From Anaerolineae bacterium (lineage in GTDB: Bacteria > Chloroflexota > Anaerolineae > Aggregatilineales > Phototrophicaceae), in NCBI GenBank assembly GCA_030950085.1, contig JAUZRW010000123.1:1-33988 (forward strand): DNA of 33,988 nt, read 5' to 3'. The notes under the pieces are model-generated. The model saw only the letters and a program-made list of their open reading frames with translations. It was not told the DNA's origin and ran no database searches. The position numbers and the translations under genes are program-made. Below, one piece after another: positions 14,663 to 31,245 of this stretch; the first letter of the stretch is position 1; every line of letters begins with the position of its first letter.

Positions 14663-15667
14663 ATGGCTCGTCGTCCCACAATTATTGATGTCGCACGTTT
14701 AGCAAGAGTATCAAAAGCGACTGTTGCGCGTGTGGTTAATGGACAACACGATATTGTTAGAGATGCGACTCGCGAGCGTGTAGAACAAGCCATTGAACAA
14801 TTAGGCTATGAACGGAATGCAGTCGCAAGTAGTTTACGCACTGACCAAACATTCGTCATTGCGCTTTCCATACCCGACATTTCAAATCCATTTTGGCCCG
14901 ACGTAACACGAGGGGTTCAAGATACACTTGAGGAAAATGATTACGCGGTTGTCACTCTCAATACAGATTGGAAAGTGGAGCGCGAAAGAAATTATCTTAA
15001 GATGATTCGGCGTAACCGTTTTGATGGTTTGATTATTAATCCTAACCGTGTTTCAACGAACGAATTGGCTGACCTCAAGATACCTGTGGTTATTCTCGGT
15101 TCAGGCGAGGCATATCCCGATTATGATTCAGTAGGCAGTGCCACAGAGCAAGGCGCTCAAGATGCCTTCAAACACTTATACGAACTCGGTCATCGGCGCA
15201 TTGGTCTCATTACAGGTCAATCAGCACGAAAGAAAGTCCAAACACGTCGAGATAGTTATTTGAAATTTTTATTGATGAATCAAATACCTTTAGACGAAAC
15301 ACTGATTATAGAAAGTGAATTTTCTCGTGAGGCAGGTTACGAAGCAATGCGACAATTTCTAACATTAGCCGTCCCCCCTTCTGCGGTTGTGGCAGCAAAT
15401 GATATTCTTGCAATTGGTGTCCTAAAAGCCGCACAAGAGATGCACTATCGCGTGCCAGAGGATATTTCAATCATCGGTATAGATGATATTTATGCCGCAG
15501 CAACGACATCGCCTGCCTTAACAACAGTAGCCAAATTGAAGTATGAGACAGGCGTTCAAGCGGCTAAATTCTTACTTGAGCGCCTTACAAGCCAAGCGCC
15601 TCAAGCAGCCCGTCATATTCAATTACCATGCACACTTGTCGTTCGAGGTTCAACAACTTCGGTTTAA
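14663..15667 (+). CDS. LacI-family transcriptional regulator
   Basis: This 334-residue protein has the usual LacI-family length. The N-terminal helix-turn-helix (residues 6-28) includes TIIDVARLARVSKATVARVV, followed by a hinge-helix region near AVASSLRT (residues 53-60). The rest is a periplasmic-binding-protein-like sensor domain with typical SNPFW, GHRRIGLITG and ISIIGIDD segments. It probably represses itself and the downstream ADP-ribosylglycohydrolase/ABC/citrate-lyase-like cluster, because identical palindromes sit before its own start and directly after its stop. The effector is likely a sugar or glycoside from the imported compound; it cannot be named from sequence. The ATG at 14663 gives the canonical MARRPTIIDVA start; an earlier ATG at 14653 is out of frame. 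Confidence 0.93.
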   Translation: MARRPTIIDVARLARVSKATVARVVNGQHDIVRDATRERVEQAIEQLGYERNAVASSLRTDQTFVIALSIPDISNPFWPDVTRGVQDTLEENDYAVVTLNTDWKVERERNYLKMIRRNRFDGLIINPNRVSTNELADLKIPVVILGSGEAYPDYDSVGSATEQGAQDAFKHLYELGHRRIGLITGQSARKKVQTRRDSYLKFLLMNQIPLDETLIIESEFSREAGYEAMRQFLTLAVPPSAVVAANDILAIGVLKAAQEMHYRVPEDISIIGIDDIYAAATTSPALTTVAKLKYETGVQAAKFLLERLTSQAPQAARHIQLPCTLVVRGSTTSV

Positions 15668-15697: not shown

Positions 15698-15717
15698 ATC
15701 ATTTTTTGGTGGAAATT

Positions 15718-16710
15718 GTGATTAATAAAAACATAAAGCAGAAAAAAGAGATTTTACTTGACCGTGCGCGAGGATGCCTATTGGGTTTAGCGGTTGGGGA
15801 CGCATTCGGCGATATTGGGCGCAATGATGCTTATCGACAACGGTATGGCATCGTGACCAATCTTTACGACGGGGCGAAGAGTACCGATGATACAGAATTT
15901 GCGATTCTCACAGCACAAACACTGATTGATTGCCAAGGGGATTTGACAACCGAACATCTTGTTGCTTCATGGAAAAAGTACATTCTCGATGAAGGTGGGA
16001 TGTTTGAGCGCGGTGGGAAACCCCTCTATGGCGCTGTGGCTAATCTCGAACGTGGCATGTTACCCCCTCTTTCGGGTCATGATAATGTGCAAAACAAAGA
16101 CGATGGTGCTGCTATGCGGATTGCTCCTATTGGCATTATTTGTGTAGGAGACCCCAATCGTGCCTCTGAAATGGCAAAAATCGAGTCGGAAATTAGTCAT
16201 GCGGAAGATGGTATTTGGGCAGCACAAGCTGTCGCTGCCAGTATTGCCGTTGCGCTAGTTGATGCAAGCATCACAGAAATTGTAAATACAGGGCTAGAAC
16301 AAATCCCAGAGGATAGTTGGCTAGGTCGCAAAATGGCACTGGCAATGAAAATCTGTCATGACAACCCAACGATTGAAGCAGCTTGGGAAGCTCTTCATAC
16401 CCAATTTTGGACACCCGCACATTCTATGGCGGCTGAGGCTATCCCACAAGCCTATGCCATCTTTAGATTAACAGGCGGAGATTTTCATAAGGGGATGTTC
16501 TGGGCGGGTAATTTTGGGCGCGATGCCGATACCATTAGTGCCGTTGTCGGTGCGCTGTCGGGTGCTATTCATGGCGAAGGTGTCATTCCTGCTGATTGGA
16601 TTGAGAAAGTATCGCATCCTGCGGGCGTTTGCCTAAAATTTTCGGCGCAACTGGATATTAGAGATATCGCAGACCAATTGGTTGACTTGGTTGAAATAAT
16701 GAAAAAATAG
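15718..16710 (+). CDS. ADP-ribosylglycohydrolase-family protein (single domain)
   Basis: This 330-residue, all-helical DraG/ARH-type protein opens with RARGCLLGLAVGDAFGD, the family signature. Metal-binding motifs are STDDTE (D57, D58) and, near the C-terminus, GRDADT (D269, D271), consistent with a binuclear Mg/Mn site. Family members hydrolyse N- or O-glycosidic bonds to ribose, classically removing ADP-ribose from proteins, but many bacterial members sit in catabolic clusters with unknown substrates. Here it is the first gene after the second operator and precedes a sugar-type ABC cassette, so a catabolic role on an imported riboside-like compound is inferred. The GTG at 15718 is chosen because GGTGGA precedes it; in-frame TTG 15706 and GTG 15709 are alternatives. 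The stop codon touches the left 90-bp inverted repeat. Confidence 0.85.
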   Translation: MINKNIKQKKEILLDRARGCLLGLAVGDAFGDIGRNDAYRQRYGIVTNLYDGAKSTDDTEFAILTAQTLIDCQGDLTTEHLVASWKKYILDEGGMFERGGKPLYGAVANLERGMLPPLSGHDNVQNKDDGAAMRIAPIGIICVGDPNRASEMAKIESEISHAEDGIWAAQAVAASIAVALVDASITEIVNTGLEQIPEDSWLGRKMALAMKICHDNPTIEAAWEALHTQFWTPAHSMAAEAIPQAYAIFRLTGGDFHKGMFWAGNFGRDADTISAVVGALSGAIHGEGVIPADWIEKVSHPAGVCLKFSAQLDIRDIADQLVDLVEIMKK

Positions 16711-16799
16711 CCCCTTTCGGGGTTTTACCGCGCCTCACATAAAATTGCAAAGTGAGACAGGCGTTAGAGCATCATCGTAGATAGTTTGTTAAACAAGAA
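16710..16799 (+). repeat. Left copy of 90-bp inverted repeat flanking ABC cassette
   Basis: These 90 bases are the reverse complement of 20124-20213 with three mismatches (one in CACAT/CACAC, two in ATCATCG/ATCACTG). The element contains a CCCC-TTTC-GGGG hairpin at its outer end. A bulged hairpin follows, formed by CGCCTCAC (16731-16738) and GTGAGACAGGCG (16752-16763). A short palindrome, TTGTTAAACAA (16786-16796), lies at its inner end. It begins at the last base of the preceding gene's stop codon and ends 16 bases before the permease start. There is no coding capacity and no transposase nearby. Confidence 0.95.
16711..16726 (+). terminator. Terminator in left inverted repeat
   Basis: CCCC TTTC GGGG (16711-16722) forms a compact hairpin followed by TTTT, directly after the stop codon of the ADP-ribosylglycohydrolase-family gene. 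The preceding A-run could make it act in both directions. It may lower or block read-through into the ABC genes, which would then need their own promoter or anti-termination. Confidence 0.6.
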
Positions 16800-16815
16800 T
16801 AGTCGGATTTTATTG

Positions 16816-17799
16816 ATGACAGCAAAAATAGAACAACACTCAAATACTTGGCGTGGACTGCCCCTCATACGCAACTTTACATCTTTAACGTCAAGTGAAC
16901 AACGCGAAGCCTTGTTTGGTTACTTATTCATCTCACCTTGGATGATTGGTTTTTTGGTGTTTTTTCTCGGACCCATTATCGCTTCTTTCGTCCTTAGTTT
17001 CTCACGTTGGGATATTGTCGGCGAAATACAATGGGTCGGTTTCGCCAATTATGAACGCATTTTTACCAATGACCCCTCTTTCCGTAAGTCCGTGCAAGTC
17101 ACACTCACCTATGCCGTTTTCTATTTGCCACTGGAAGTCATTTTTGGTATTGGCTTGGCAGTCGTCATGAACCAAAAGGTAAAAGCTATCGGCATCTTCC
17201 GAACACTTTTCTATATGCCCTATGTTGTCCCGAAAGTGGCAGGAGCTTTAGTCTGGGTTTGGATGTTGAGTGCGCGTTATGGGGCTGTCAACACCCTGCT
17301 TGGATGGGGTGGCATAGAGGGACCAAGATGGCTTGAGAGTCCGCGTTATGTTTTACCAAGCATCATTATTATGAGCCTGTGGGGTGTCGGAGGCAGTGCC
17401 GTTATCTATCTTGCTGGGCTTCAAAATATTCCAGAACAACTCTATGAAGCGGCGACAATTGATGGTGCAAATGCTAGACAGCGTTTTCGATATGTGACTT
17501 TGCCAATGCTCACGCCGACCATCTTTTTTCAAATCGTATTGGGGTTAATTGGTGTGTTCCAGACCTTTACACCAGCCTTCATTGCCGCAGGACAAGCCGG
17601 TGGGCCCTTGCAATCGGGTTTGTTTTATATGCTCTACATTTACAACAAAGCCTTTGGAGCTAGTGGCGCAGGGTCTCGAATGGGCTATGCGTCGGCACTC
17701 TCATGGATTATCACGGTTTTCATCCTGATTATAACTGTTCTTATCTTCCGTAGCTCCAAATACTGGGTTCATTACGAAGCGGAACGGCAAGGGAGATAA
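16816..17799 (+). CDS. Carbohydrate ABC transporter permease, MalF/UgpA type
   Basis: This 327-residue inner-membrane permease has about six hydrophobic segments. The first follows a cytoplasmic stretch of about 35 residues and begins near LFGYLFISPWMIGF. The EAA loop that docks on the ATPase is EAATIDGANARQRF (from about residue 211), with typical LPMLTP after it. Together with the next two genes it forms a sugar-type (CUT1) uptake system; no ATPase gene is present. The ATG at 16816 is preferred. An in-frame TTG at 16786 would start inside the inverted repeat and add 10 residues of no family likeness. The ribosome-binding site is weak. Confidence 0.9.
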   Translation: MTAKIEQHSNTWRGLPLIRNFTSLTSSEQREALFGYLFISPWMIGFLVFFLGPIIASFVLSFSRWDIVGEIQWVGFANYERIFTNDPSFRKSVQVTLTYAVFYLPLEVIFGIGLAVVMNQKVKAIGIFRTLFYMPYVVPKVAGALVWVWMLSARYGAVNTLLGWGGIEGPRWLESPRYVLPSIIIMSLWGVGGSAVIYLAGLQNIPEQLYEAATIDGANARQRFRYVTLPMLTPTIFFQIVLGLIGVFQTFTPAFIAAGQAGGPLQSGLFYMLYIYNKAFGASGAGSRMGYASALSWIITVFILIITVLIFRSSKYWVHYEAERQGR

Positions 17800-17805
17800 A
17801 TCAAT

Positions 17806-18684
17806 ATGGCACAATTAACAACAACTGTTGCTCATCAAAATCAAAATAAAGTCTTGGCTGCTCTGACTTGGCTACGGTCAAAAAGTATGTATGTCCTTCT
17901 GATTGTTTTGGCAGCACTCTTTCTTATTCCACTTTATTGGATGCTTGCAACTTCGTTAAAAACGCCCGCACAAACATTCGCACTGCCGCCCGAATGGATT
18001 CCTAATCCAGTTGCGACTGAGAATTATACTCAAGTATTTGAGGAAGTTCCTTTTGGTCGTTTCATTTTGAATTCATTCTTCCTTGTAATCATGAATGTTA
18101 TCGGGCAATTGGTCTCTGTTACTTTAGTGGCTTATGGTTTCGCCCGCTTACGCTTTCCGGGACGCAGTATTCTCTTCTTGCTGATGCTTGCGACACTCAT
18201 GATTCCTTATCAAGTGACACTTGTGCCACGCTTTATTTTGTTTGCCAAGATTGGTTGGGTGAATACCTATCTACCACTCATTGTCCCTGCATTTACTGGT
18301 AGCCCGTTTCTAATTTTTCTCGTTCGCCAATACATGATGAGTATCCCTTTCGACCTTGACGAAGCGGCTTATATTGATGGTGCTAATCAATTTGATGTAT
18401 TTTGGCGAATTATCTTGCCCTTAGCGCGTCCAGCCTTAGTTTTAGTCGTCGTCTTTACATTCATCGACGTTTGGAACGATTTTTTGCAACCCCTCATCTA
18501 TCTCAATGACCCAAACCTGTTTACCGTATCACTAGGGTTAAGTTTCTTCCAAGGACAACGAGAAACAGCATGGAATCTCTTGATGGCGGCGGCGCTGATG
18601 GCAATGACACCTCCCCTATTGCTATTCTTTTTTGCCCAGAAACAGCTTATCGGAGGCATCTCAGTTGAGGGGTTGAAGGGATAA
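17806..18684 (+). CDS. Carbohydrate ABC transporter permease, MalG/UgpE type
   Basis: This 292-residue inner-membrane permease is the partner of the preceding gene, starting only 6 bases after its stop; GGGAG at the end of that gene can serve as ribosome-binding site. MalG-type features include the first membrane segment ending IPLYWMLATSLKTP, the LPPEW periplasmic segment and the EAA loop DEAAYIDGANQFDVF (from residue 185) followed by LPLARPAL. The C-terminal FFFAQKQLIGGISVEGLKG is typical of MalG-like permeases. The specific sugar cannot be inferred. Confidence 0.92.
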   Translation: MAQLTTTVAHQNQNKVLAALTWLRSKSMYVLLIVLAALFLIPLYWMLATSLKTPAQTFALPPEWIPNPVATENYTQVFEEVPFGRFILNSFFLVIMNVIGQLVSVTLVAYGFARLRFPGRSILFLLMLATLMIPYQVTLVPRFILFAKIGWVNTYLPLIVPAFTGSPFLIFLVRQYMMSIPFDLDEAAYIDGANQFDVFWRIILPLARPALVLVVVFTFIDVWNDFLQPLIYLNDPNLFTVSLGLSFFQGQRETAWNLLMAAALMAMTPPLLLFFFAQKQLIGGISVEGLKG

Positions 18685-18785: not shown

Positions 18786-20078
18786 ATGAATAAACGTACT
18801 TTACTAACTTTGATGCTCATCATTGGCATTCTCATTCCTGTGTTATCAATCCAAGCACAAGATGAGACTGTTACCATTACATGGTGGGGAACAGAACGTG
18901 GACGTGATACCGCCGCAACCCGTGAGGTTCATTTCCAATTGGCGCGTGCCTTTGAAGAAGCTAATCCGGGCATTAACGTTGCGGTTTCGCTCTTCCCCAG
19001 CCGTGGATTTAACACCCGTGTCGCTACAGCGATTGCAGCAGGTCAAGGTCCCGATGTTTGGTATCATACCCTTCCCGCCGATGCCGCCGACCAAGGTTTT
19101 TTGTTAGATTTAACACCCCTTATGGAACGCGATGGCATCAATCCTGAAGAACTGTGGTTCTCTGGTGCAGAACAACGTATGAAATACGAGGGTCGCTATT
19201 ACGGCGCTCCACGCGATGCAGTTTCAGCATTGGTATTTTACAATATAGACATGTTTGAAGCGGCTGGTGTCGATATCCCACAAGCCGGCTGGACAGTTGA
19301 TGACTTCCGTTCTATCGCTAATCAACTAACTGACCGTGATAATGACCTCTATGGTGTCGGCGCGATTGTCGGCGGCGATGGTTGCACGCTCTGGTCTTCT
19401 TTCTCCTTCAATCTCGGTGCAGATACCATCAGCCCAGATGGTCGCCAAGTTGTCGGTTATCTGGATACACCAGAAGCCGCGAATGCTTTCCGCTATTGCC
19501 TAGAACTCGTGACCGAAGACCAAGTAACCGCACCATCCGAACTGCAAGACCAGTTTGGCGAATTAGTGTTCTTGTCCGGTCAAGTTGCGATGCAATCTGG
19601 CTCAAACTGGGAAATTCCAGCCGTGCAGGAACAAGCCGATTTTGCTTGGGGCGTGATTGAATCACCGCGCTTCGACACAGATTCAGAAGGCATCCCTTGG
19701 ACAGATAGCATTTCCTACTCCATCTGGGAAGGCAGCAGCAATCAAGAGGCAGCATGGGAATTAGTCAAATGGTTGAGTGGCGCTGATGCACAACGCATGG
19801 CAGCAGAAGCTAATGTTTGGTTCCCCAATAGCCCTGCAATCTGGGAAGAATTGAGTTGGGATGCAGATCCTATTCTCGGTATCTCTTATAGTGAATTGCT
19901 CAAAGACACCGTGATACCCAACTATCTGCGCTCGCGTTTCTTCTTTGATTGCGCCTATTCAGTCCACAGCAACGCCCGTGTTCGCTGGGTAGAAAATGGT
20001 GAACGCGATATAGACTCCATATTAGCGGAAGAAACCGCTAATGCACAATCTTGTCTGGATGATAATTACGGCGTTTAA
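18786..20078 (+). CDS. ABC transporter extracellular sugar-binding protein
   Basis: This 430-residue solute-binding protein (SBP_bac_1 family) is the substrate-capturing part of the ABC cassette. It starts with a signal peptide (MNKRTLLTLMLIIGILIPVLS), probably cut after IQA; there is no lipobox cysteine. Family features include TITWWG at the mature N-terminus, AFEEANPGINV, AAGQGPDVWY and WELVKWLSG. GAGGAAA lies at good distance before the ATG. It is the last gene inside the inverted-repeat-bracketed segment and is followed at once by a strong terminator. A polysaccharide- or glycoside-derived ligand is likely; its identity is unknown. Confidence 0.93.
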   Translation: MNKRTLLTLMLIIGILIPVLSIQAQDETVTITWWGTERGRDTAATREVHFQLARAFEEANPGINVAVSLFPSRGFNTRVATAIAAGQGPDVWYHTLPADAADQGFLLDLTPLMERDGINPEELWFSGAEQRMKYEGRYYGAPRDAVSALVFYNIDMFEAAGVDIPQAGWTVDDFRSIANQLTDRDNDLYGVGAIVGGDGCTLWSSFSFNLGADTISPDGRQVVGYLDTPEAANAFRYCLELVTEDQVTAPSELQDQFGELVFLSGQVAMQSGSNWEIPAVQEQADFAWGVIESPRFDTDSEGIPWTDSISYSIWEGSSNQEAAWELVKWLSGADAQRMAAEANVWFPNSPAIWEELSWDADPILGISYSELLKDTVIPNYLRSRFFFDCAYSVHSNARVRWVENGERDIDSILAEETANAQSCLDDNYGV

Positions 20079-20242: not shown

Positions 20243-22330
20243 ATGCTGCCTGTTGACTATGAAAATCGAGTGTATGCAGCGTGGCTCGGTAAATGTATTG
20301 GTGTACGATTTGGCGCACCGCTTGAAAATTGGACATACGAAGAAATCCGCGACAATCTCGGCGACCTCCAATGGTATGTGCGCGAAGATAGAGGGAAAAT
20401 CTTTAAGCCCGATGATGATACGTCTGTCCCACTGATACAACTCCGTGCGATACAAGATTATGATAGTCGGTCTCATTTGACAGCCCAAGAATGTGCCGAA
20501 ACGCTGCTGAATTATATCGGCGACCATCATGGGACGTTTTGGTGGGGAGGCTATGGTATATCTAGCGAAGAAACAGCCTATATGAACCTCATCAGTGGTA
20601 TTCCTGCCCCTCTCTCTGGTTCTATCGCAATGAACGGCGAAATTCTACCTGAGCAAATTGGAGGACAAATTTTTAGTGATATTTGGGGGTTAGTTGCCCC
20701 TAATCAACCGGCGCTTGCTGCGGATTTAGCAGGCACAATGGCGAGTGTTTCTCATGACCGCAACGGCATCTATGGTGGGCGTTTTATTGCCGCGCTAACT
20801 GCCGCCGCCTTCTCAGAATCCGACCCCCGAAAATTAATTGAAATCGGATTAGAGCATATCCCAAGTGACAGTCAATATACAGAAGTTGTCCGCGCAATGC
20901 TCGATTTCCATGCCCAACATCCCGAAGATTGGCACGCCGCATTTGCACATCTCAAAGCACACTATGGCGACCATCTCTATCCCGGCTTGGTACACATTAT
21001 TCCCAATGCAGGGGTTGTTATTTTGGGTTTGCTTTATGGCGAAGGTGATTTTTCACAAACTTTACGAATCACGAATATGGCAGGTTGGGATACGGATTGT
21101 AATGTCGGCAATGTAGGCGCAATCATGGGCGCGGCTGTTGGCTTAGAGGCAATTGATTATCAGTGGCGCGAACCGATGAACGACCTTGTTGTACTGGCAA
21201 GCCTCATCGGAACACGCAATATTATGACGATTCCGCAATGTGCTGACCTCATCTGCCATTTAGGACGCAAATTGAGTGGAGAAGCGCAGAGTGAAACTAA
21301 GGCACGCTATCACTTTGGCTATTCAGGGTCAACTAATAACTTCATTGCAACAGGCAAAAAAGGTCGCCCGATTCATATTCAGCAAGCAATCGTTGAGGGT
21401 GAACCATCGCTCAAAGTATCCGTTCGGAAATTGAACAAAAAAGGCGAAATACGAGTTGCAACACGCACCTACTATCGCCCCTCAGAATTGCTCAGTAATT
21501 ATTACGGCGCGGCATTTACGCCTCGCATCTATCCCGAACAAACAGTCACAGCAAAGTTGTATTTGCCAACCGATGCCCCACAAGATATTAAAGCCGCTAT
21601 TTTTGTCTATGACGATAATCATGCACAATCATATCAAGCACAAGCAATAACATTGACACCCAACACATGGCACAACTTGACCTACACCATTCCGCCACTT
21701 GACGATGCTTGTTTGTCACAAGTTGGTATCGTCTTACGCAATGTGAGCGCCAATTGGACAGTTGGTTCTTTTGCTATTTCAGAACTCGATTGGGACAATA
21801 CACCACATTACAGCACAACGTTTGCCAAAGAACGTCCTGAAACGGGTGCTATCAGTCAATGGACATATTTACGCGGTTATTGGCGACTTGAGAATGGTGC
21901 TTATCATGGTAGCGGCATCGGCTATAGCGAAAGTTATTCTGGTGACATTGACTGGACAGATTACACCGTATCTAGCGAAATCACACCGCTTATGGGCGAT
22001 TATCACCTTATCAATGTGCGTGTACAAGGTGCTTTACGCAGTTATGCTTTCGGATTAGCACCCGATAATACGATTGCCCTCTACAAAAAAAATACGTCCT
22101 ACCAGCTAATGCAAAAAACCGACTTTACATGGCAACATGGACAGTCTTATCGCTTAAAAATCTGTGCAAAGGGCGATGAATTTGTAGCGACGATTGAGGG
22201 CGATGAAGAAACGAAAACTATCCATTGGCGTGATACAAATGCCCCCTATCGCAATGGACAAATCGGGCTTTCAATCTGGAATAATGGGCATACCGCCTTT
22301 CATTGGCTCAAAGTTGTGCCAGAGGAATAA
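20243..22330 (+). CDS. ADP-ribosylglycohydrolase-family protein fused to C-terminal LamG-like domain
   Basis: This 695-residue protein combines an ADP-ribosylglycohydrolase-like domain (about 1-345) with a beta-sandwich region. The N-terminus AAWLGKCIGVRFGAPLE and PDDDTSVPL (D57-D59) form the first metal motif; GWDTDCNVGN (D283, D285, N287) forms the second. The C-terminal part has a carbohydrate-binding-like segment (about 370-525), then a concanavalin/DUF1080-like domain (about 530-695) with DWTDYTVSSEI and NGQIGLSIWNNG. No signal peptide is visible, so it is probably cytoplasmic. The reaction is likely hydrolysis of a ribosyl or related glycosidic bond, with the extra domain binding the substrate; this is inference. 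AAAGGGGAAATA gives a good ribosome-binding site. It is only distantly similar to the single-domain family member upstream, so the two are probably not a recent duplication. Confidence 0.85.
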   Translation: MLPVDYENRVYAAWLGKCIGVRFGAPLENWTYEEIRDNLGDLQWYVREDRGKIFKPDDDTSVPLIQLRAIQDYDSRSHLTAQECAETLLNYIGDHHGTFWWGGYGISSEETAYMNLISGIPAPLSGSIAMNGEILPEQIGGQIFSDIWGLVAPNQPALAADLAGTMASVSHDRNGIYGGRFIAALTAAAFSESDPRKLIEIGLEHIPSDSQYTEVVRAMLDFHAQHPEDWHAAFAHLKAHYGDHLYPGLVHIIPNAGVVILGLLYGEGDFSQTLRITNMAGWDTDCNVGNVGAIMGAAVGLEAIDYQWREPMNDLVVLASLIGTRNIMTIPQCADLICHLGRKLSGEAQSETKARYHFGYSGSTNNFIATGKKGRPIHIQQAIVEGEPSLKVSVRKLNKKGEIRVATRTYYRPSELLSNYYGAAFTPRIYPEQTVTAKLYLPTDAPQDIKAAIFVYDDNHAQSYQAQAITLTPNTWHNLTYTIPPLDDACLSQVGIVLRNVSANWTVGSFAISELDWDNTPHYSTTFAKERPETGAISQWTYLRGYWRLENGAYHGSGIGYSESYSGDIDWTDYTVSSEITPLMGDYHLINVRVQGALRSYAFGLAPDNTIALYKKNTSYQLMQKTDFTWQHGQSYRLKICAKGDEFVATIEGDEETKTIHWRDTNAPYRNGQIGLSIWNNGHTAFHWLKVVPEE

Positions 22331-22335
22331 GAAAT

Positions 22336-23883
22336 ATGGTCAAGTTACACGAATATCAAGGCAAGCAAATTCTAGCAAAATACGGGATTTCTCTTCCCCA
22401 AAGCATCCTTGCAACATCACCAAATGAAGCGCGGCAATTTGCTGAAAAAATCGGTGCTGTCGTTGTTAAAGCACAAGTTTGGACAACCAGTCGTGCGGCA
22501 CAGAATCTGATTCACTTTGCAGCAACAAGCGATGAAGCAGCACAGGCAGCAAACACCTTAATCGGTCAAAGAGTCGGTAATTTCATTGTTGAACATGTCT
22601 TGGTTGAAGAACAAGTCGCTATTGAGCAAGAATGGTATCTCGGACTCATCATTGATGACCAAGCCCGTGTGCCTGTATTGCTATTTAGTGCTGTTGGTGG
22701 AAGCGGTATCGAAGAGATTCTGACAGCAAATCCAAACCAAGTGATTCGCCATCAGATTAATATCCGCGAAGGCTTGCAAGATTTTGAAGCGCGTGAGATT
22801 TGCCGTCGCGCAGGAATCGGCGGACGCACAATGTTGAAACTGAGCCAAGTGATTCGGCGTTTTTATGATGCGACGCGGTATTATGAGGCACGGTCAGCCG
22901 AAATCAATCCGCTTGTTCTCACAAAAGACGGGCAGATTATGGCGCTTGATGCCCGTTTCACGATTGATGATTATGCGCTATTTCGTCATCCTGATTTGGA
23001 CATTGAAGTGGCACGAGAACTTGACCGTCCGCCTACAAAACTCGAAAAAATAGCGTGGCAAGTCGAGAAAGATGATTATCGTGGGACATTTTACTTCATC
23101 CAGATGATGAGTGACTTTGAAAAAGGTCAAAATGTGGTCGGTTTTCATGGCGCAGGCGGTGGCGGCAGTATGATGAACATGGATGCCCTCTTAGCGCGTG
23201 GATTCCAAATAGCAAATTTTGTCGATACCAGTGGCAATCCCCCAGCGAGCAAAGTTTATCGTGCCGCACGAATCATTCTCAGCCAAGCCAATATAGACGG
23301 CTATTATGCAGGCGGTAGTGGTGTTGCCAGTCAAGAACAATTTCATTCGGCGCGTGGTTTAGTCAAGGCATTTATGGATACCCAACTCAACATTCCGGCA
23401 GTAATTCGTATTGGTGGCAATGCTGAGGAAGAAGCAATCGACATTTTACAGCGTGCGAAAGGGACTTTCCCTGCACCGCTAGAGGCTTATGGGCGCGATG
23501 ATTCGCCGGATATGTGCGCCGAACGTTTGCAAGCACTCATTGAAACTTATGAGCCACTTCAAGACCCTCCTGTGCGCGAAAATCCCCAAGCACAAGACCC
23601 TTATCAGTTCGAGACCGTCACGGGCGGCACAGTCACCTTTGACCATGCTCTTTGCCGAAACTGCGAGAGCAAAATTTGTATCGAAACTTGTGTACCGCAA
23701 ATATTATCGCTAGACGAAGGCGTTCCTGTTCTCAATATTGGACACGACGAGGCAAAACGTGGCGCATGTACCGAATGTCTTGCTTGCGAGGTGGAATGTT
23801 ATTTTTTAGGCAATCGGGGCGGTATTATTCATTTGCCCATACAAGGTTTAAGCAGCGAGAAAAATCATGCCGATATTGATTAA
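22336..23883 (+). CDS. ATP-grasp CoA-ligase beta subunit (ATP-citrate-lyase/SucC-like) with ferredoxin-like C-terminus
   Basis: This 515-residue protein starts like SucC/AclB (KLHEYQGKQILAKYGI). An ATP-grasp region includes the conserved EINPLVLTKDGQIMALDAR, followed by a CoA-ligase domain with FHGAGGGGS and NFVDTSGNPP. The C-terminal part is unusual: it carries C440-x2-C443-x4-C448-x3-C452 and C478-x2-C481-x2-C484-x3-C488, the spacing of a two-[4Fe-4S] ferredoxin-like domain, not part of standard succinyl-CoA synthetase or ATP-citrate lyase beta chains. With the next gene, overlapping by 17 bases, it should form an ATP-dependent acyl-CoA ligase/lyase. AGAGGAATAAGAAAT precedes the ATG, 5 bases after the previous stop. 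A longer start (TTG 22303) would overlap the previous gene and lacks support. Confidence 0.85.
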   Translation: MVKLHEYQGKQILAKYGISLPQSILATSPNEARQFAEKIGAVVVKAQVWTTSRAAQNLIHFAATSDEAAQAANTLIGQRVGNFIVEHVLVEEQVAIEQEWYLGLIIDDQARVPVLLFSAVGGSGIEEILTANPNQVIRHQINIREGLQDFEAREICRRAGIGGRTMLKLSQVIRRFYDATRYYEARSAEINPLVLTKDGQIMALDARFTIDDYALFRHPDLDIEVARELDRPPTKLEKIAWQVEKDDYRGTFYFIQMMSDFEKGQNVVGFHGAGGGGSMMNMDALLARGFQIANFVDTSGNPPASKVYRAARIILSQANIDGYYAGGSGVASQEQFHSARGLVKAFMDTQLNIPAVIRIGGNAEEEAIDILQRAKGTFPAPLEAYGRDDSPDMCAERLQALIETYEPLQDPPVRENPQAQDPYQFETVTGGTVTFDHALCRNCESKICIETCVPQILSLDEGVPVLNIGHDEAKRGACTECLACEVECYFLGNRGGIIHLPIQGLSSEKNHADID

Positions 23884-25567
23884 TAAAACCAAGCGCGTTC
23901 TCATACAAGGCATTACAGGGCGTGAGGGAGTCGCTCGCACAAAATTGATGAGCAACTATGGGACACAAGTTGTTGCCGGAGTTACGCCGGGCAAAGGCGG
24001 ACAAACTGTATTGGGTATCCCTGTATTTGATACAGTTCAAGAGGCTTGTGAAACGGTTGGGAAAATTGATATTAGTGTTCTGTTTGTCCCTGCCCCGTTG
24101 GTCTTAGGCGCAGCATTAGAAGCATTTGCAGCCGATATCAAGTTGCTCGTCATCGTTCCAGACCGTGTTCCCCTTTATGATGTCTTAGAAATTGCGGCAG
24201 TTGCAAAAAAGCATGGCGCTCAATTTGTAGGACCCAACACTTTAGGTATTCTCAGCCCCGATGCCGGTGTATTAGGCATGATGGGCGGACGGGCGGAAAG
24301 CGCCAGCGAATGGCTATTTCCGGGTCCAGTCGGCATCACGAGTCGTAGTGGGGGTATCACAACCAGCATCGCTTACTATATCGCGCAATCCGGCATCGGA
24401 TTATCGACTTTGGCACATGTTGGCGGTGATTCCGTTGTCGGCATGACTCATGCGGATATGTTGCGCTTATTCCAAAAAGATGAACAGACCAAACTCGTTG
24501 TGTTATTCGGCGAAATTGGTACATCACAAGAAGAAGAAGCGGCGCATTGTGTCGCATCCGGTGAATTTACGAAACCACTCATTGCTTACATCGGGGGCAA
24601 AGCAGCAAAAGAAGGTACACGATTCAGTCATGCCGGAGCAATTATTGAAGGCAATAAAGGCACTCATGAAGGCAAAGTTCGCCGTCTGCGCGAAGTGGGT
24701 GCAGTCGTCGCCGAATCATTTTCGGATATTCCACAACTTGTCGCTGAAACATTGCAATCGCTAAAATCTGAATCCGCAGCGCCAACCTCAAAATCTGTTA
24801 AAAATGCCTCATGGTATACCGCCATCACTGAGATACAGCCGAACCTCATTCGACTGCGCGGTCATCGCATTGAGAATCTGATAGGTGACATTTCATTTTC
24901 TCAAGCAATTTATCTCGCTCTCACAGGCAAACTCCCCGACAAATCAATCGGTACGATTCTTGATGCAATTTTGGTATCGTCTATCGACCACGGCGCAACT
25001 CCCCCATCGACATTAGCTGCACGCACGGCAGCCAGTACCGGGGCTGCAATAAACGCCGCGTTATCAGCCGGACTGCTTTCGATTAACAAACATCATGGGG
25101 GCGCAATCGAAGCCTGTATGCGCCTTATTCAAACTGCGCTGGACAATCAACAGGCAGAAAAATGTTCTGTAGAAGATGCTGCGATGAGTCTTGTGCGTGA
25201 ATATCGTCAGTCAAAACGTCGTTTAGCGGGCTTTGGGCATCGGATTCATAGTGCTGACCCACGTAGCGAACGCTTGCTAAAACTAGCGTCCCAAGAAAAA
25301 CTTGCTGCTGACGGTATAACGATGCTTCAGGCGTTGCGAGATGCGCTATCAGAACAAACGGAGCACGATTTTCCGATAAATGTCGATGGCGCAATAGCAG
25401 CAATCTTACTCGACATCGGCATTGAAGCCCCATTAGGCAATACATTTTTCATGATGGCACGTTTACCGGGTTTAATTGCCCATATCCGCGAAGAACAGAC
25501 TCGTGAACGTCCGATGCGTGTTATTCATCCGCGTAATCATGGATATGATGGTGAACGGCATGAGTAA
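23867..25567 (+). CDS. ATP-citrate-lyase alpha-like protein: SucD domain fused to citrate-synthase-like domain
   Basis: This 566-residue fusion has the domain order of ATP-citrate lyase alpha. Residues 1-300 match SucD, with VLIQGITGREG near the start, a CoA-binding GVTPGKGG, GITSRSGG and FSHAGA with the likely phospho-histidine H255. Residues about 320-560 form a citrate-synthase-type lyase domain keeping HHGGA (H409/H410), GFGHRIH (H458) and NVDGA (D507), the usual catalytic triad positions. The expected reaction is ATP- and CoA-dependent cleavage of citrate or a related 3-hydroxy acid to acetyl-CoA and an oxoacid. In a sugar-uptake cluster a different substrate is possible. It overlaps the preceding gene by 17 bases and so is translationally coupled. 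It could serve reductive TCA carbon flow, but the location argues for a catabolic role. Confidence 0.85.
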   Translation: MPILINKTKRVLIQGITGREGVARTKLMSNYGTQVVAGVTPGKGGQTVLGIPVFDTVQEACETVGKIDISVLFVPAPLVLGAALEAFAADIKLLVIVPDRVPLYDVLEIAAVAKKHGAQFVGPNTLGILSPDAGVLGMMGGRAESASEWLFPGPVGITSRSGGITTSIAYYIAQSGIGLSTLAHVGGDSVVGMTHADMLRLFQKDEQTKLVVLFGEIGTSQEEEAAHCVASGEFTKPLIAYIGGKAAKEGTRFSHAGAIIEGNKGTHEGKVRRLREVGAVVAESFSDIPQLVAETLQSLKSESAAPTSKSVKNASWYTAITEIQPNLIRLRGHRIENLIGDISFSQAIYLALTGKLPDKSIGTILDAILVSSIDHGATPPSTLAARTAASTGAAINAALSAGLLSINKHHGGAIEACMRLIQTALDNQQAEKCSVEDAAMSLVREYRQSKRRLAGFGHRIHSADPRSERLLKLASQEKLAADGITMLQALRDALSEQTEHDFPINVDGAIAAILLDIGIEAPLGNTFFMMARLPGLIAHIREEQTRERPMRVIHPRNHGYDGERHE

Positions 25568-26539: not shown

Positions 26540-27820
26540 TTATTTTGGAATATGCTTTTTGAGGATAGGCATGATGGCAGTTTGAATACGCGCCTGTGTA
26601 TAGCGACTGATTCCGATAGCAAGTGGCCAATCAACCTCATATCCACCTTCGGAAAAGGCATTCTCTGGCGGCAAATAACCATAACTGCCATTGGCATAGG
26701 TTACAAACATAGCGTAGTCATAACCGAGTTGTTGGCAAACTTTACGAAAATCAAGCGATGTTTCACTAAAACTTTCGCCCGGTTGTCCCACAATGACTGT
26801 ATTGCCAATGCCGATGAGCATAATTTCCAGACGGAGGGCTTCATTGCTTATACCGGGTATCAATTGTTTGAAGAAGTCGGGTATTGTCTCAGGTTTTGCT
26901 TCGTCATCAGATAAGCCTGCATCAACCATGATATGTTCTGACCATATCTGACTATCTGCTACTGTCTTAATCCGTCGCCAGATGCGCTGTACTTCAGCAC
27001 TATAGGCTCGTGCGAGTGCCTCACACTCAGCAAATGTACCTCCTGCGCGGTCTTCAATATTCCAACCCTCAGAAAGTGCCATTTCTTTATCGCCATAATA
27101 GCTTGTCAGTTCGCCAATCGTTATCACGGGGTCTCCATTAGTGAGATGTTCTTGCACCGTTTCAGTGAGTGGATTCACATCACCTGCCCCGCCCTGCATA
27201 AAAATAGCAACACAATCCTCGCCAAGCATTTCCTCAAGATTGCGACTAGCATAACCGGGCCAGTCACCAGAAATTAGAAAATTATCATAACCCATGACCA
27301 CCGCATGACAAGCAAAATTACCAATGACTGCCATCGGTTTACCCTCTATTGTATCCACCCGAATAACGCCAACAGCCGGGTCTACAGGACGGTCTAGCCA
27401 ACGCCGATTGATACTATACCCCAGCAATAAACCACCACCGACTCCTATTTTAGCCGATTGCATTGCTTCATTCGCTTCTAAAATCGTTGACCCTATCGAC
27501 TCTACAAACGGCACATTCCACGCACTAATATCGTGGGCAGCAGGCGCTGAGTGAGTATGAGTCGTCGTAATAAAAATATTCTCTGCTAACAAGTCTGATT
27601 GACGAGTGACGTAATCACGAATTTCGTGAACTTGAGGAGCGCGTAGATAACATACCTCGATACTACAGAAGACTGATTTATTTTTGCCGTCATCTAGCAC
27701 CACTACTCGGATATAAAGGTCATCATGAACGCCCGTGCTGGCAGAAATCCGATTGCCATAACCCATTAGTCCTGAGCCAATTTTGGGAGATAATTTTTGT
27801 TTCGCCACGCCTGCTTGCAT
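26540..27820 (-). CDS. Neutral/alkaline ceramidase-like protein lacking the usual nucleophile serine
   Basis: This 426-residue protein resembles the N-terminal domain of neutral/alkaline non-lysosomal ceramidases. Zinc-ligand positions appear conserved at THTHSAP (H88, H90) and FACHAVVMG (H172). The sequence GGAGDVNP at about 211-217 matches the ceramidase active-site loop, but the catalytic serine position of characterised ceramidases (GDVSP type) is N216 here. No signal peptide is seen, while true bacterial ceramidases are secreted. It is therefore likely a metal-dependent hydrolase acting on something else, perhaps a sugar-derived amide or ester. The ATG at 27820 with upstream AAAGG is preferred; the longer frame starts with TTG at 27850. 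It converges on the GNAT gene and diverges from the second ABC operon. Confidence 0.75.
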   Translation of the reverse strand: MQAGVAKQKLSPKIGSGLMGYGNRISASTGVHDDLYIRVVVLDDGKNKSVFCSIEVCYLRAPQVHEIRDYVTRQSDLLAENIFITTTHTHSAPAAHDISAWNVPFVESIGSTILEANEAMQSAKIGVGGGLLLGYSINRRWLDRPVDPAVGVIRVDTIEGKPMAVIGNFACHAVVMGYDNFLISGDWPGYASRNLEEMLGEDCVAIFMQGGAGDVNPLTETVQEHLTNGDPVITIGELTSYYGDKEMALSEGWNIEDRAGGTFAECEALARAYSAEVQRIWRRIKTVADSQIWSEHIMVDAGLSDDEAKPETIPDFFKQLIPGISNEALRLEIMLIGIGNTVIVGQPGESFSETSLDFRKVCQQLGYDYAMFVTYANGSYGYLPPENAFSEGGYEVDWPLAIGISRYTQARIQTAIMPILKKHIPK

Positions 27821-27967
27821 GTCCTGAACCTTTATGATAATTGTCCACAATATCCTATAGAGACTAACACGAAATATAGAAAATACGAATTTCGGCGGTC
27901 TTGAGGCTACAAATCACGCAATAAGACCATTTGCTTTACTTTTTTGGCGAGCGTTGTTATAAATGAC

Positions 27968-28037: not shown

Positions 28038-29303
28038 GTGAAAAAAGTTACACTGTTAGCATTTGTTATTCTCATGTTGTTGCCAATGACCATTTACGCA
28101 CAAGACGATGTTGTTGAACTCGTTATGGGCAGTTGGCGTACCGAAGATATTGAACAGTGGGAAGCGATGATTGCATTATTTGAGGCGGAAAATCCCAATA
28201 TTAAGGTGATTTTTGAACCGACCTTGAATACCGAGTATAATACCCAAATCCAAACATTGCTTTCAGCTGGCGAAGGTCCCGACCTAATCACTTGTCGTCC
28301 TTTCGACACAACGCTGCTATGGTATCAAGATTTGAACGGTCTGGCTGACATTTCCGACCTACCGGGTCTGGAAAACTTTAGCGATGTCGCTCTCGGTGCT
28401 TGGTCAACCGATGATGGCAGTGCCACCTATTGTGTTCCGATGGCAACCGTGATTCATGGTTTCATTTACAATGTGGAAATCTTTGATGAACTCGGCTTAG
28501 AAGAACCGCGTACCGAAAGTGAGTTCTTCGCGGTGCTAGATGCTATCCAAGAAGCTGGCATTACCCCACTCGCAATCTCCACCAAAGACGCATGGACAAT
28601 TACCACAATGGGTTTCAACAATCTATGGCCGAATTTCTGTGATGGTGAAAATACACGCCTTGCAATGCTCAGTGGTGAAGCCAAGCATACAGACGATTGC
28701 TTTGTGAATACATTTGAGTCCGTGCAACGTTGGGCTGACTATATGCCAGATGGTTTCCAATCCATTGGTTATGCTGATACACAACAGATGTTCCCACTCG
28801 GATTAGCCGCGATTTATCCGGCTGGCTCATGGGAAATTCCGCTTTTCAATAGCATTGCCGATTTTGAAATGGGCGCATTCCGTCCCTATCAACCCGATGA
28901 CCGCGCTCCCGAAGATTGCTGGATTGATGACCATGTGGATATCGCTGTTGGTATGAATGCCAATACTGACCATCCCGAAGAAGCACGTATTTTCTTGGAA
29001 TGGCTGACGACACAAGAATTCGCCCAAGCCTTCTTCAATAATCAACCCGGTTTCTTCCCACTGGGTCAGCATGAACTTGAAGCGCCAGACGACCCACTAG
29101 CAGCCGCCTTCTTGTCATGGCGCAGCGAATGTGGCTCGACCATCCGCTTGTGGGATCAACGCCTTCGCCGTGACCCCGAAAACGATGGCTACGCGGTCAC
29201 ACGCGATAATATGCCCTTGCTGATGAATGGCGAACTGACACCGCAAGAAATTGCACAAATCGCCCAAGACCGTATGGATTCATGGTATGTACCGGGTGAA
29301 TAG
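28038..29303 (+). CDS. ABC transporter extracellular sugar-binding protein (second system)
   Basis: This 421-residue SBP_bac_1-type protein is the first gene of the second ABC operon. It has a signal peptide (MKKVTLLAFVILMLLPMTIYA, likely cut before QDD). Typical segments are LFEAENPNIKV, LLSAGEGPDLI, GSWEIPLF and ARIFLEWLTT. The GTG start at 28038 is fixed by a strong AAAAGGAG seven bases upstream and by the signal peptide right after it. Several cysteines in the mature part may form disulfides. It is unlike the first binding protein beyond family features, so the two systems probably import different sugars. Confidence 0.92.
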   Translation: MKKVTLLAFVILMLLPMTIYAQDDVVELVMGSWRTEDIEQWEAMIALFEAENPNIKVIFEPTLNTEYNTQIQTLLSAGEGPDLITCRPFDTTLLWYQDLNGLADISDLPGLENFSDVALGAWSTDDGSATYCVPMATVIHGFIYNVEIFDELGLEEPRTESEFFAVLDAIQEAGITPLAISTKDAWTITTMGFNNLWPNFCDGENTRLAMLSGEAKHTDDCFVNTFESVQRWADYMPDGFQSIGYADTQQMFPLGLAAIYPAGSWEIPLFNSIADFEMGAFRPYQPDDRAPEDCWIDDHVDIAVGMNANTDHPEEARIFLEWLTTQEFAQAFFNNQPGFFPLGQHELEAPDDPLAAAFLSWRSECGSTIRLWDQRLRRDPENDGYAVTRDNMPLLMNGELTPQEIAQIAQDRMDSWYVPGE

Positions 29304-29327
29304 ACCCAATTTCTAAAATAGTAACCG

Positions 29328-29362
29328 TAAGTTAGGGGTGTGGTTTTCCATGCCCCTACTTA
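29328..29362 (+). other. Strong intercistronic hairpin between binding protein and permease genes
   Basis: A stem of about 14 bp with one bulge and two G-T pairs forms around TAGGGGTGTGG, a TTTT loop and CCATGCCCCTA. No T-run follows. Such structures between binding-protein and permease genes commonly protect the upstream mRNA part and raise binding-protein levels over permeases. The TAGGGG/CCCCTA ends also recall REP-like repeats. Confidence 0.7.
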
Positions 29363-29380
29363 GTTATTTGGATATAGATT

Positions 29381-30301
29381 ATGCGAACCACAAAACGCGC
29401 TCATTGGCATCACCTTCTTATTTTTATAGGTCCAGCAGTTCTCATTTACAGTGTTTTTTTAGCCTTGCCGCTCGTTGATTCTTTGCGTCTTAGCTTATAT
29501 AGCCGCGTTGATGGTGAGGTCGTATTTGTTGGCTTACAAAACTTCGACAAATTGCTCAATAATCCCTTCTTCAGCGAACGTTTCTGGGGCGCATTGAAGC
29601 ATAACTTTGCGTGGTTTGTCTTATTTATGGCTATTCAGAATCCTGTCGGCTTATTATTAGCCGCACTGGTTTCATCGCCGAAGTTAAAAGGGGCGGCATT
29701 TTATCGCACTGTCATTTTTACGCCAACGACCATGTCGATTGTTATCATCGGCTGGGCATGGACACTCATGCTCAATCCATTATGGGGTATTGTGAATGAC
29801 ATCTTAAACTTTTTCAGATTAGGCGCGATAATACCCTCACGGGGTTGGTTAGGGTCAGAAGATACGGCACTGATTGTCGTTATCCTAGTCGGCATCTGGC
29901 AATATATTGGCTTGCCCTTTGTCCTCTTCTTGGCATCCCTAACCGCCATTGATGAAGAACTTATCGAAGCCGCACGGGTTGATGGTGCAACGGGATGGAG
30001 TATCTTCTGGCGTATCAAATTCCCACTCATCCTACCGACTGCCGGAATTGTTGCTATCCTCACATTCGTCGGCAATTTTAGCGCCTTTGATAATGTCTAT
30101 GTCATGCAAGGTAGTACAGCAGGTCCCGATTATGGCACGGATTTGCTGGGGGTTTTCTTCTATCGGACTGCCTTTGGAACCTTAGGCTCAGTTCCCGACC
30201 TATATATGGGGACGACTATCGCAACTGTCATGTTCGGCATCATCTTGACAGGGGTGTTACTATATTTCTTTGGCATCCAACAGCGTCTTATCCGCGATTA
30301 A
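29381..30301 (+). CDS. Carbohydrate ABC transporter permease, MalF/UgpA type (second system)
   Basis: This 306-residue inner-membrane permease has six or so hydrophobic segments, starting with HLLIFIGPAVLIYSVFLALP. The EAA loop EAARVDGATGWSIFWRIKFP begins at residue 196. It follows the binding-protein gene after a 77-base gap holding a strong hairpin. The ribosome-binding site is weak (TTGGATATAG), which fits lower expression than the binding protein. The start at 29381 gives the expected short basic N-terminus (MRTTKRAHWH). Confidence 0.92.
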   Translation: MRTTKRAHWHHLLIFIGPAVLIYSVFLALPLVDSLRLSLYSRVDGEVVFVGLQNFDKLLNNPFFSERFWGALKHNFAWFVLFMAIQNPVGLLLAALVSSPKLKGAAFYRTVIFTPTTMSIVIIGWAWTLMLNPLWGIVNDILNFFRLGAIIPSRGWLGSEDTALIVVILVGIWQYIGLPFVLFLASLTAIDEELIEAARVDGATGWSIFWRIKFPLILPTAGIVAILTFVGNFSAFDNVYVMQGSTAGPDYGTDLLGVFFYRTAFGTLGSVPDLYMGTTIATVMFGIILTGVLLYFFGIQQRLIRD

Positions 30302-30324
30302 CAGAGTCTTGAAAAAGGTGTTTT

Positions 30325-31245
30325 ATGGCTGTTCAAGTTGATGCTAAACAAGGTTATTCGGCAGAAAATCTAGTACCCACCAAATCTTGGGGGCAACGGA
30401 TAAGTGCGATAATTCCGCACTTAATCCTCATACCCTATTCTCTTTTAGCACTTTTCCCACTCTTCATTATTATTGTCAATTCACTTAAAGACCGCCGTGA
30501 TTTATTCCGTACACCTTATATCCCTCCGCTCTGGTTCTCGTTTGAAGACGGCTTTCACTTCGTCTATATATTTTCATCCAGTGGTTATCAGCAGGTCTTT
30601 GAACGTGCGAATGTCTTGCTCTATTTCGGCAATAGCATCGTTGTGACGAGTGCGGCTCTCTTCCTCATTTTGCTGACAGGTTCGATGATTTCTTTTGCAT
30701 TATCGGAATATAGTTTCTGGGGTAGTCGCTTTTTGGCACTCTATATGGCGCTTGGTATCATGATTCCCATTCGTTTGGGAACAGTCAGTCTCATTGGAAT
30801 CGTGCGCTTCTTGGGTTTATATAACAGCTTGCCGGCGCTTATCTTGGTTTATGCGGCATCGGGCTTACCCATTGCTGTCTTTGTCCTGACAGAATATATG
30901 CGACAAGTCCCAATGGAACTCAAAGATGCGGCACGGGTGGATGGTGCAAGTGAATATCGCATCTTGTTTACACTCGTGATGCCCGTTATTCGACCTGCCC
31001 TAGCAACGGTGCTAGTCTTTAACATGCTGCCGATTTGGAACGGTTTATGGTTTCCGCTCACACTTGCCCCTAACGAAAAGGTGCGAACAGTTACACTTGG
31101 CTTATCAGCATTTGCAGGGCAGTATAAGACCGATTGGACAGCCTTACTCGCAGCACTGACATTAGCCATGATACCCGTCCTCATTCTCTATGGTATCTTC
31201 TCGCGTCAGTTTATTTCAGGGCTAACACGCGGCGCAGTCAAGTAA
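30325..31245 (+). CDS. Carbohydrate ABC transporter permease, MalG/UgpE type (second system)
   Basis: This 306-residue inner-membrane permease is the partner of the previous gene, 23 bases downstream, with AAAAAGG as ribosome-binding site. The first membrane segment reads LLALFPLFIIIVNSLKDRRD. The EAA loop DAARVDGASEYRILF begins at residue 201, followed by VMPVIRPAL. The C-terminus ends FSRQFISGLTRGAVK, typical of the MalG group. No ATPase gene follows, so this system too must use an ATPase encoded elsewhere. Confidence 0.92.
   Translation: MAVQVDAKQGYSAENLVPTKSWGQRISAIIPHLILIPYSLLALFPLFIIIVNSLKDRRDLFRTPYIPPLWFSFEDGFHFVYIFSSSGYQQVFERANVLLYFGNSIVVTSAALFLILLTGSMISFALSEYSFWGSRFLALYMALGIMIPIRLGTVSLIGIVRFLGLYNSLPALILVYAASGLPIAVFVLTEYMRQVPMELKDAARVDGASEYRILFTLVMPVIRPALATVLVFNMLPIWNGLWFPLTLAPNEKVRTVTLGLSAFAGQYKTDWTALLAALTLAMIPVLILYGIFSRQFISGLTRGAVK

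Follow-up and report, generated by a model that had tools for sequence, protein, structure and literature searches.

A ferredoxin-like cysteine tail on a citrate-type CoA ligase of an Anaerolineae bacterium and its relatives

We describe a gene pair, at positions 22336-25567 of a 33 988-nucleotide stretch of DNA from an Anaerolineae bacterium (contig JAUZRW010000123.1 of assembly GCA_030950085.1; hereafter 'the window'), that resembles ATP-citrate lyase (ACL) and citryl-CoA synthetase (CCS) and whose SucC-like beta chain ends in a tail with eight cysteines. Judged from its cysteine pattern, this tail is predicted to be a two-cluster ferredoxin-like domain whose two [4Fe-4S] clusters would lie against the ligase part. 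The explanation that best accounts for our comparative data, with a probability of roughly 0.45, is that of a redox-responsive docking or regulatory Fe-S module on a citrate-type (ACL/CCS-type) CoA ligase/lyase. The relevant features of the pair are:

22336..23883, forward strand: beta chain, 515 amino acids; SucC-type ATP-grasp CoA-ligase subunit (about residues 1-405) plus C-terminal tail
23314..23340, forward strand: specificity-loop region G327-S-G-V-A-S-Q-E-Q335 of beta, from HMMER alignments with 6hxj_A and 6hxq_B
23614..23847, forward strand: ferredoxin-like tail of beta; Fer4_9 sub-threshold, predicted local distance difference test (pLDDT) about 72-90 within the full-length model
23653..23691, forward strand: cysteine motif I, C440-x2-C443-x4-C448-x3-C452, read from the sequence; four cysteines invariant in 20/20 chains
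23767..23799, forward strand: cysteine motif II, C478-x2-C481-x2-C484-x3-C488, read from the sequence; four cysteines invariant in 20/20 chains
23867..25567, forward strand: alpha chain, 566 amino acids; SucD part (about residues 1-300) fused to a citryl-CoA lyase (CCL) part (about residues 309-566)

Beta starts with an ATG at 22336 (the mechanically called open reading frame begins further upstream, with a TTG at 22303), stops at 23883 and shares 17 bases with the alpha reading frame. Pfam searches detected ATP-grasp_2 (E 2.9e-45) and Citrate_bind (29.2 bits, narrowly above the cut-off of 26.8) in beta, which scored under the curated cut-offs for succinyl-CoA synthetase (SCS; NCBIfam sucCoAbeta, 243.2 versus 375.55 bits; PRK00696, 237.7 versus 370 bits). 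In alpha, a SucD part (NCBIfam sucCoAalpha, E 1.4e-85) precedes a CCL part that lies above curated citryl-CoA-lyase cut-offs (NF004866, 254.6 against 245 bits; NF004869, 240.5 against 212 bits) and whose nearest solved structure is the CCL of Hydrogenobacter thermophilus (6hxp, E 2.9e-51). The initial annotation, made from the DNA letters, had called alpha a SucD-citrate-synthase-type fusion with its catalytic residues kept, and this was borne out: phospho-His255 of SucD and His410, His458 and Asp507 of CCL are all present. Among relatives with at least 50% identity whose alignment covers the residue in question, the SucD histidine was kept in 37/37, the CCL histidines in 57/57 and 54/54 and the aspartate in 32/32. 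The SucC-type ATP-grasp chain, the SucD phospho-histidine and the two histidines and one aspartate of CCL, by which ACL or CCS plus CCL are recognized, are thus found together. The AlphaFold2 model of full-length beta (mean pLDDT 87) was aligned by VIA-align over residues 1-405 with SCS (3ufx, Z 32), CCS (6hxq, Z 28.6) and ACL (6hxj, Z 27.6). The host genome (5.09 Mb, 97% complete, with the window as contig 28) encodes an ordinary SucCD separately, elsewhere.

The cysteines of beta are residues 156, 394, 440, 443, 448, 452, 478, 481, 484 and 488, the last eight falling into two four-cysteine motifs at exactly the positions initially annotated (C440-C452 and C478-C488), with a spacer of 25 residues between them. 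In an alignment of 20 beta chains, window included (alignment A1), all eight tail cysteines are invariant and ligase and tail are collinear in 20/20 chains, so that the cysteines are conserved in close homologues, a point on which the annotation had made its proposal depend. Outside the cysteines, the tail is more variable than the ligase core in this alignment. Across all loci examined, 42 of the 44 distinct tail strings (identical strings being taken once, as some genomes occur twice in the set) contain all eight cysteines and an identical 25-residue spacer, and the motifs are therefore not due to chance. Both exceptions are diverged paralogues within one metagenome-assembled genome (MAG; G555) that retain 7 cysteines and are altered in motif II, which lacks its first cysteine at locus L111 and reads C-x2-D-x2-C-x3-C at locus L112, a substitution that occurs in 3Fe-4S/4Fe-4S ferredoxins.

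Two four-cysteine motifs with the same spacings are found in 2[4Fe-4S] ferredoxin domains (Fer4_9; HycB-type subunits such as 7qv7_B), and their conservation across relatives, together with the altered motif II of the two diverged paralogues, supports a ferredoxin-like reading of the tail, in line with the two-cluster spacing first proposed. Unlike them, the tail has C-x-P rather than C-P after the fourth cysteine, scores under the Pfam cut-offs and is fused to a CoA ligase. The profile search of the beta C-terminus that the initial annotation had recommended was positive in one respect, with 15/17 tails matching Fer4_9 at E <= 0.01, but the Pfam cut-offs were not reached. No significant match was obtained in the PDB, either with the single tail sequence or with a 17-sequence profile, the top profile match (not significant, E 0.056) being 8ys5_D, a 2-oxoglutarate oxidoreductase ferredoxin subunit. 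In the full-length beta model, blocks over residues 420-500 have a pLDDT of 72-90; ferredoxin chains are absent from the VIA-align list of the whole model, in which the matches listed span residues 1-405, so that nothing is excluded by it. Kinship with FixX or electron transfer flavoprotein-ubiquinone oxidoreductase was considered and rejected, no such Pfam family being among the tail matches up to E 10. It is very improbable that the tail cysteines bind zinc or form disulfides instead of carrying Fe-S clusters. The sub-threshold Fer4 models and the C-x-P at the place of the typical C-P would fit such a role, but the presence of two intact motifs of four cysteines each, spaced as in ferredoxins and invariant in 42/44 tails, the Fe-S-type substitution of L112 and the Fer4_9 matches in most tails all argue for clusters.

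The tail family was detected in MAGs of Chloroflexota, Calditrichota and Deinococcota, i.e. in at least three phyla, with 27/154 genomes in the window's order, 13/301 in its sister order (the order of G555, MAG RBG_16_48_8), 4/40 in the phylum of a Calditrichota MAG and 2/111 in that of a Trueperaceae MAG. In the last of these searches 64 matches reached the threshold, of which 62 were ordinary SucC (39-42% identical) ending near residue 420 or earlier. A SucC-like match of some kind was present in every genome of a 61-genome sample of relatives, and a 400-genome sample of the window's phylum yielded, apart from the genome of the window itself, a single chain, 47% identical and truncated where its contig stops. 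A tree of 78 ligase cores, which supplied the phylogeny of beta chains with and without the tail proposed at the outset, separated a 46-row group (support 100/96), comprising 41 tail-bearing rows and 5 whose contigs stop before the tail, from 31 ordinary SucC rows that form the other main branch. On this grouping of ligase cores, the tail marks one clade. No tail loss was seen within this clade of the tree, the only rows without a tail being the 5 cut by contig ends. A tailless SucC-like row from a genome of the same family (L040; extremely long branch, 4.27) was placed, with an unsure position, at the base of the tail group; a stop codon lies inside this match, which is either a decayed gene or an assembly error.

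Among known systems, CCS (6hxq) and CCL (6hxp) of H. thermophilus comprise SucC-type and SucD-type subunits plus a CCL as in the window, and 6hxq_B has the GGGGS and GNPPA motifs in common with beta. SucD and CCL are separate proteins there, likewise in several tail-bearing relatives (L013, L014 and L052), but fused in the window, and the window pair differs further in its ferredoxin-like tail and in the replacement of the A-N-x-T loop. AclAB of Chlorobium limicola (6hxj) has a SucD-CCL fusion chain and a separate SucC-type chain of the same fold as in the window, whereas window beta, about 27% identical in the structural alignment, bears the tail and a different citrate-loop motif. Both beta (Thermus 3ufx, E 4.9e-62) and the SucD part of alpha find their best overall match in SCS (SucCD), but the window pair adds a CCL domain and the tail, and its beta chain falls under the sucCoAbeta cut-off. 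Sets of SucC, SucD and citrate-synthase-type genes, fused or separate, were placed between CCS-CCL and type II ACL in the Planctomycetes OTU-14 and DG20 by a 2017 study (PMC5459899); these intermediates resemble the window pair in their gene set, and the section that describes them mentions no Fe-S tail. Within the literature searched, outside which most subscription journals lie, no title or abstract opening describes an Fe-S tail on a SucC or ACL chain, and we found no earlier description of this ferredoxin-tailed branch of citrate-type CoA ligases. To our knowledge, ACL and SCS are textbook enzymes without a redox cofactor.

In the sister order, beta, SucD and CCL genes are followed by one for a conserved 179-residue protein without a Pfam family and by those for LeuC/LeuD-type aconitase subunits, the latter in 7/7 loci whose DNA extends that far; isocitrate/homoisocitrate-dehydrogenase-like and PrpD-like genes also occur in these clusters. 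Genes of 2-oxoacid:ferredoxin-oxidoreductase (OFOR) type and/or HdrA2 type run divergently from beta in 10/13 sister-order loci (KorA in 6, a gamma-type subunit in 9 and HdrA2-type in 8 of the 13), and separate FlpD and VhuG-like genes are found at L147 and L149. The Calditrichota locus L114 has the 179-residue protein and the isocitrate-dehydrogenase-like and PrpD-like genes in common with the sister order, L116 shows weak aconitase-like matches, and the Deinococcota loci L117 and L157 contain none of the sister-order neighbours among the queries used. For the window's order, the context was examined in every tail-bearing genome except G499 (26 of 27), and Kor/Hdr-type genes lay beside beta in 0/26 loci. 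The coupling to an OFOR suggested by the initial annotation thus finds gene linkage in the sister order and none in the order from which the window comes.

KorA of the sister-order type was present in only 4/27 tail-bearing genomes of the window's order, and was missing from the window's own genome at E <= 1e-60. Other POR_N-family genes were found in 26/27 of these genomes (two in the window's own) and in 10/14 control genomes; being common in controls too, their presence says little. An obligate OFOR link was rejected as a general explanation, given the lack of such neighbours in the window's order and the absence of KorA from most genomes there. The broader proposal, in which the tail acts as a ferredoxin for electron transfer or docking and physically joins the ligase to an OFOR/HdrA complex in one (reverse) tricarboxylic acid (TCA) assembly, is unlikely in our estimate. 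It would account for the Kor, HdrA2 and FlpD genes divergent beside tailed ligases, with at least one Kor/Hdr-type gene in most sister-order loci, for the aconitase and isocitrate-dehydrogenase-like genes downstream and for the non-significant top match of the tail to an OFOR ferredoxin subunit. It is opposed by the window's order, where no such genes adjoin the ligase and the cysteines are invariant although this KorA type is absent from 23/27 tail-bearing genomes, and by a catalysis that requires no electrons. A fixed OFOR/HdrA partnership would appear to fit part of the family only.

The tail persists whether the partners are split or fused or beta stands alone, in a catabolic operon as well as a TCA-like cluster and, as a 7-cysteine form, beside another lyase (L111), and hence belongs to the ligase and not to one pathway. 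Redox sensing or docking, the other role raised by the initial annotation, is the best fit to this constancy across settings, and the tail probably senses, or docks to, the electron-transfer machinery of the cell. In the mechanism that we favour, ATP would phosphorylate the SucD histidine at the SucC/SucD site, an acid, most likely citrate or a close hydroxy-tricarboxylate, would be converted to its CoA thioester, and the CCL domain would split this thioester into acetyl-CoA and an oxoacid, or act in reverse; activation via the SucD histidine and a subsequent split by CCL is the established mechanism of ACL and CCS. The tail would carry no electrons for the bond chemistry, and through it the state of cellular ferredoxin, or contact with oxygen, would determine whether the ligase is active or recruited. 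In the sister order, the neighbouring genes would provide the steps from citrate to 2-oxoglutarate as well as ferredoxin oxidoreductases; in the lineage of the window, the operon would serve the uptake and hydrolysis of a glycoside-like solute, and the enzyme would feed the released acid into acetyl-CoA.

Several observations weigh against this regulatory interpretation. The window tail reached no Pfam Fer4 gathering cut-off (Fer4_9, 19.5 against 27 bits; Fer4_6, 18.4 against 25 bits), which is probably also why it goes unannotated, and folded alone it gave a poor model (pLDDT 52). The A-N-x-T citrate loop of 6hxj_A and 6hxq_B is replaced in beta by GSGVASQEQ. Four further citrate-synthase-family genes are present in the host genome (contigs C48, C262, C90 and C53) besides the CCL domain of the window, so that there is no obvious need for another citrate enzyme. 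Finally, we know of no redox step in the ACL/CCS-type reaction, and we infer the regulatory role by exclusion. The clusters might instead be a structural or oxygen-labile stability element that holds the C-terminal segment or the alpha-beta interface without signalling, which we regard as a minority possibility: the tail reaches confident pLDDT values only within the full-length chain, is never lost in its clade and stays constant while fusion state and operon vary, but ordinary SucC (the 31 rows of the other main branch), CCS and ACL manage without it, and its sequence outside the cysteines varies more than the ligase core.

A wider extension of redox sensing is more speculative still, namely that the tail defines a redox-gated branch of the SCS superfamily, made up of hydroxy-acid CoA ligases each with its own C-C lyase (CCL or HpcH/HpaI), in which the tail reads the state of ferredoxin or docks onto a bifurcating OFOR-HdrA complex and so sets whether citrate is made or split; if so, electrons would control whether the TCA cycle runs oxidatively or reductively. 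Fe-S motifs on a ligase subunit across at least three phyla would imply a principle of control or assembly between electron carriers and acetyl-CoA/citrate metabolism. If the favoured reading is true, the tail would be a sequence marker for a citrate-cleaving system now seen by models only as a succinate-CoA-ligase relative, a marker that would bear on claims of reverse TCA autotrophy in Chloroflexota and Calditrichota.

The A-N-x-T loop, which has a role in citrate binding in ACL and CCS, reads GGAIANFTD in the former and GGTANNTRID in the latter. In alignment A1, G327, S328, G329, A331, S332, Q333, E334 and Q335 of its replacement are invariant (8/9 positions in 20/20 chains). With this loop replaced, the acid pocket differs, and we refer to the pair as ACL/CCS-like rather than filing it as an ACL; the 'ATP-citrate-lyase-like' of the initial annotation holds as a likeness. 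Citrate is nevertheless the likely substrate, as suggested by the aconitase and isocitrate-dehydrogenase-like genes near the sister-order ligases. In the window, the pair follows these genes:

14663..15667, forward strand: LacI-family regulator (PF00356, PF13377)
15706..16710, forward strand: second ADP-ribosylglycohydrolase-family protein (PF03747, E 2.9e-48)
16786..17799, forward strand: ABC permease 1 (PF00528)
17806..18684, forward strand: ABC permease 2 (PF00528)
18786..20078, forward strand: sugar-type ABC solute-binding protein (PF01547)
20243..22330, forward strand: ADP-ribosylglycohydrolase-family protein with an extra C-terminal region (PF03747, E 1.5e-48), kept beside beta in related loci

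The last of these genes stops 5 bases upstream of beta. An ADP-ribosylglycohydrolase-family gene lies upstream of beta in 20/23 loci of the window's order with upstream DNA, mostly together with permease, solute-binding and LacI genes as in the window, and an esterase gene often follows alpha. At L047, L055 and L097 the contig ends upstream of beta, and at L049-L051 beta has no partner gene beside it, SucD and CCL being encoded at other places in the genomes concerned. That the substrate is another acid released in this ADP-ribosylglycohydrolase/ABC operon (homocitrate, 2-methylcitrate, citramalate or a sugar-derived acid) is a serious, if tentative, alternative to citrate and is compatible with any reading of the tail. 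The nearly invariant GSGVASQEQ at the place of the ACL/CCS loop, the operon with its LacI regulator, sugar-type importer, ADP-ribosylglycohydrolases and (in relatives) esterase, the tailed paralogues that adjoin an HpcH/HpaI lyase or 3-hydroxy-3-methylglutaryl-CoA (HMG-CoA) reductase, and neighbours as close to homoisocitrate dehydrogenase and PrpD as to TCA enzymes are all consistent with it. Citrate is favoured by the CCL scores above curated cut-offs (NF004866, NF004869), by Citrate_bind above its cut-off in beta and by the same sister-order neighbours.

The 179-residue protein is encoded near CCL in most clusters of the tail family that are not ADP-ribosylglycohydrolase operons and appears HD-phosphohydrolase-like by eye:

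179-residue protein: L148 14733-15269; L011 9427-9963; L098 11517-12044; L099 263-796; L100 9058-9588; L114 4865-5395

Of the two 7-cysteine paralogues, the SucC-like chain of L112 (7141-8680) is broken by an N run and a frame change, and its gene has HMG-CoA reductase on one side and, on the other, a SucD-like gene with 3-hydroxyisobutyrate-dehydrogenase-like genes after it; the chain is possibly a further CoA ligase of the tailed branch. Locus L111 (5343-11024) encodes a two-part fumarase, a SucC-like chain with its tail in another frame after an N run, SucD and an HpcH/HpaI lyase, and looks like a malyl- or citramalyl-CoA set.

In a plasmid collection, 0/88 records cover 80% of beta, and the 20 plasmid matches listed are by name succinate-CoA ligase, malate-CoA ligase or ATP-grasp protein, with one unannotated. 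In scans for promoters and terminators, shuffled sequences yielded more sites than the real one, and the sites were disregarded. Downstream of the pair, a 436-amino-acid protein (26540-27850, reverse strand) is weakly like neutral ceramidase (E 6e-13, far under the cut-off), and a second sugar-type ABC importer (28038-31245; solute-binding protein and two permeases) lies close by, its permeases sharing about 30% identity with the operon's own. Upstream, an 1110-amino-acid protein with weak matches only (11176-14508) overlaps a giant protein of 3482 amino acids (731-11179), which contains subtilase, matrixin, beta-helix, lamin-tail and cadherin-like domains and is probably secreted or located at the surface.

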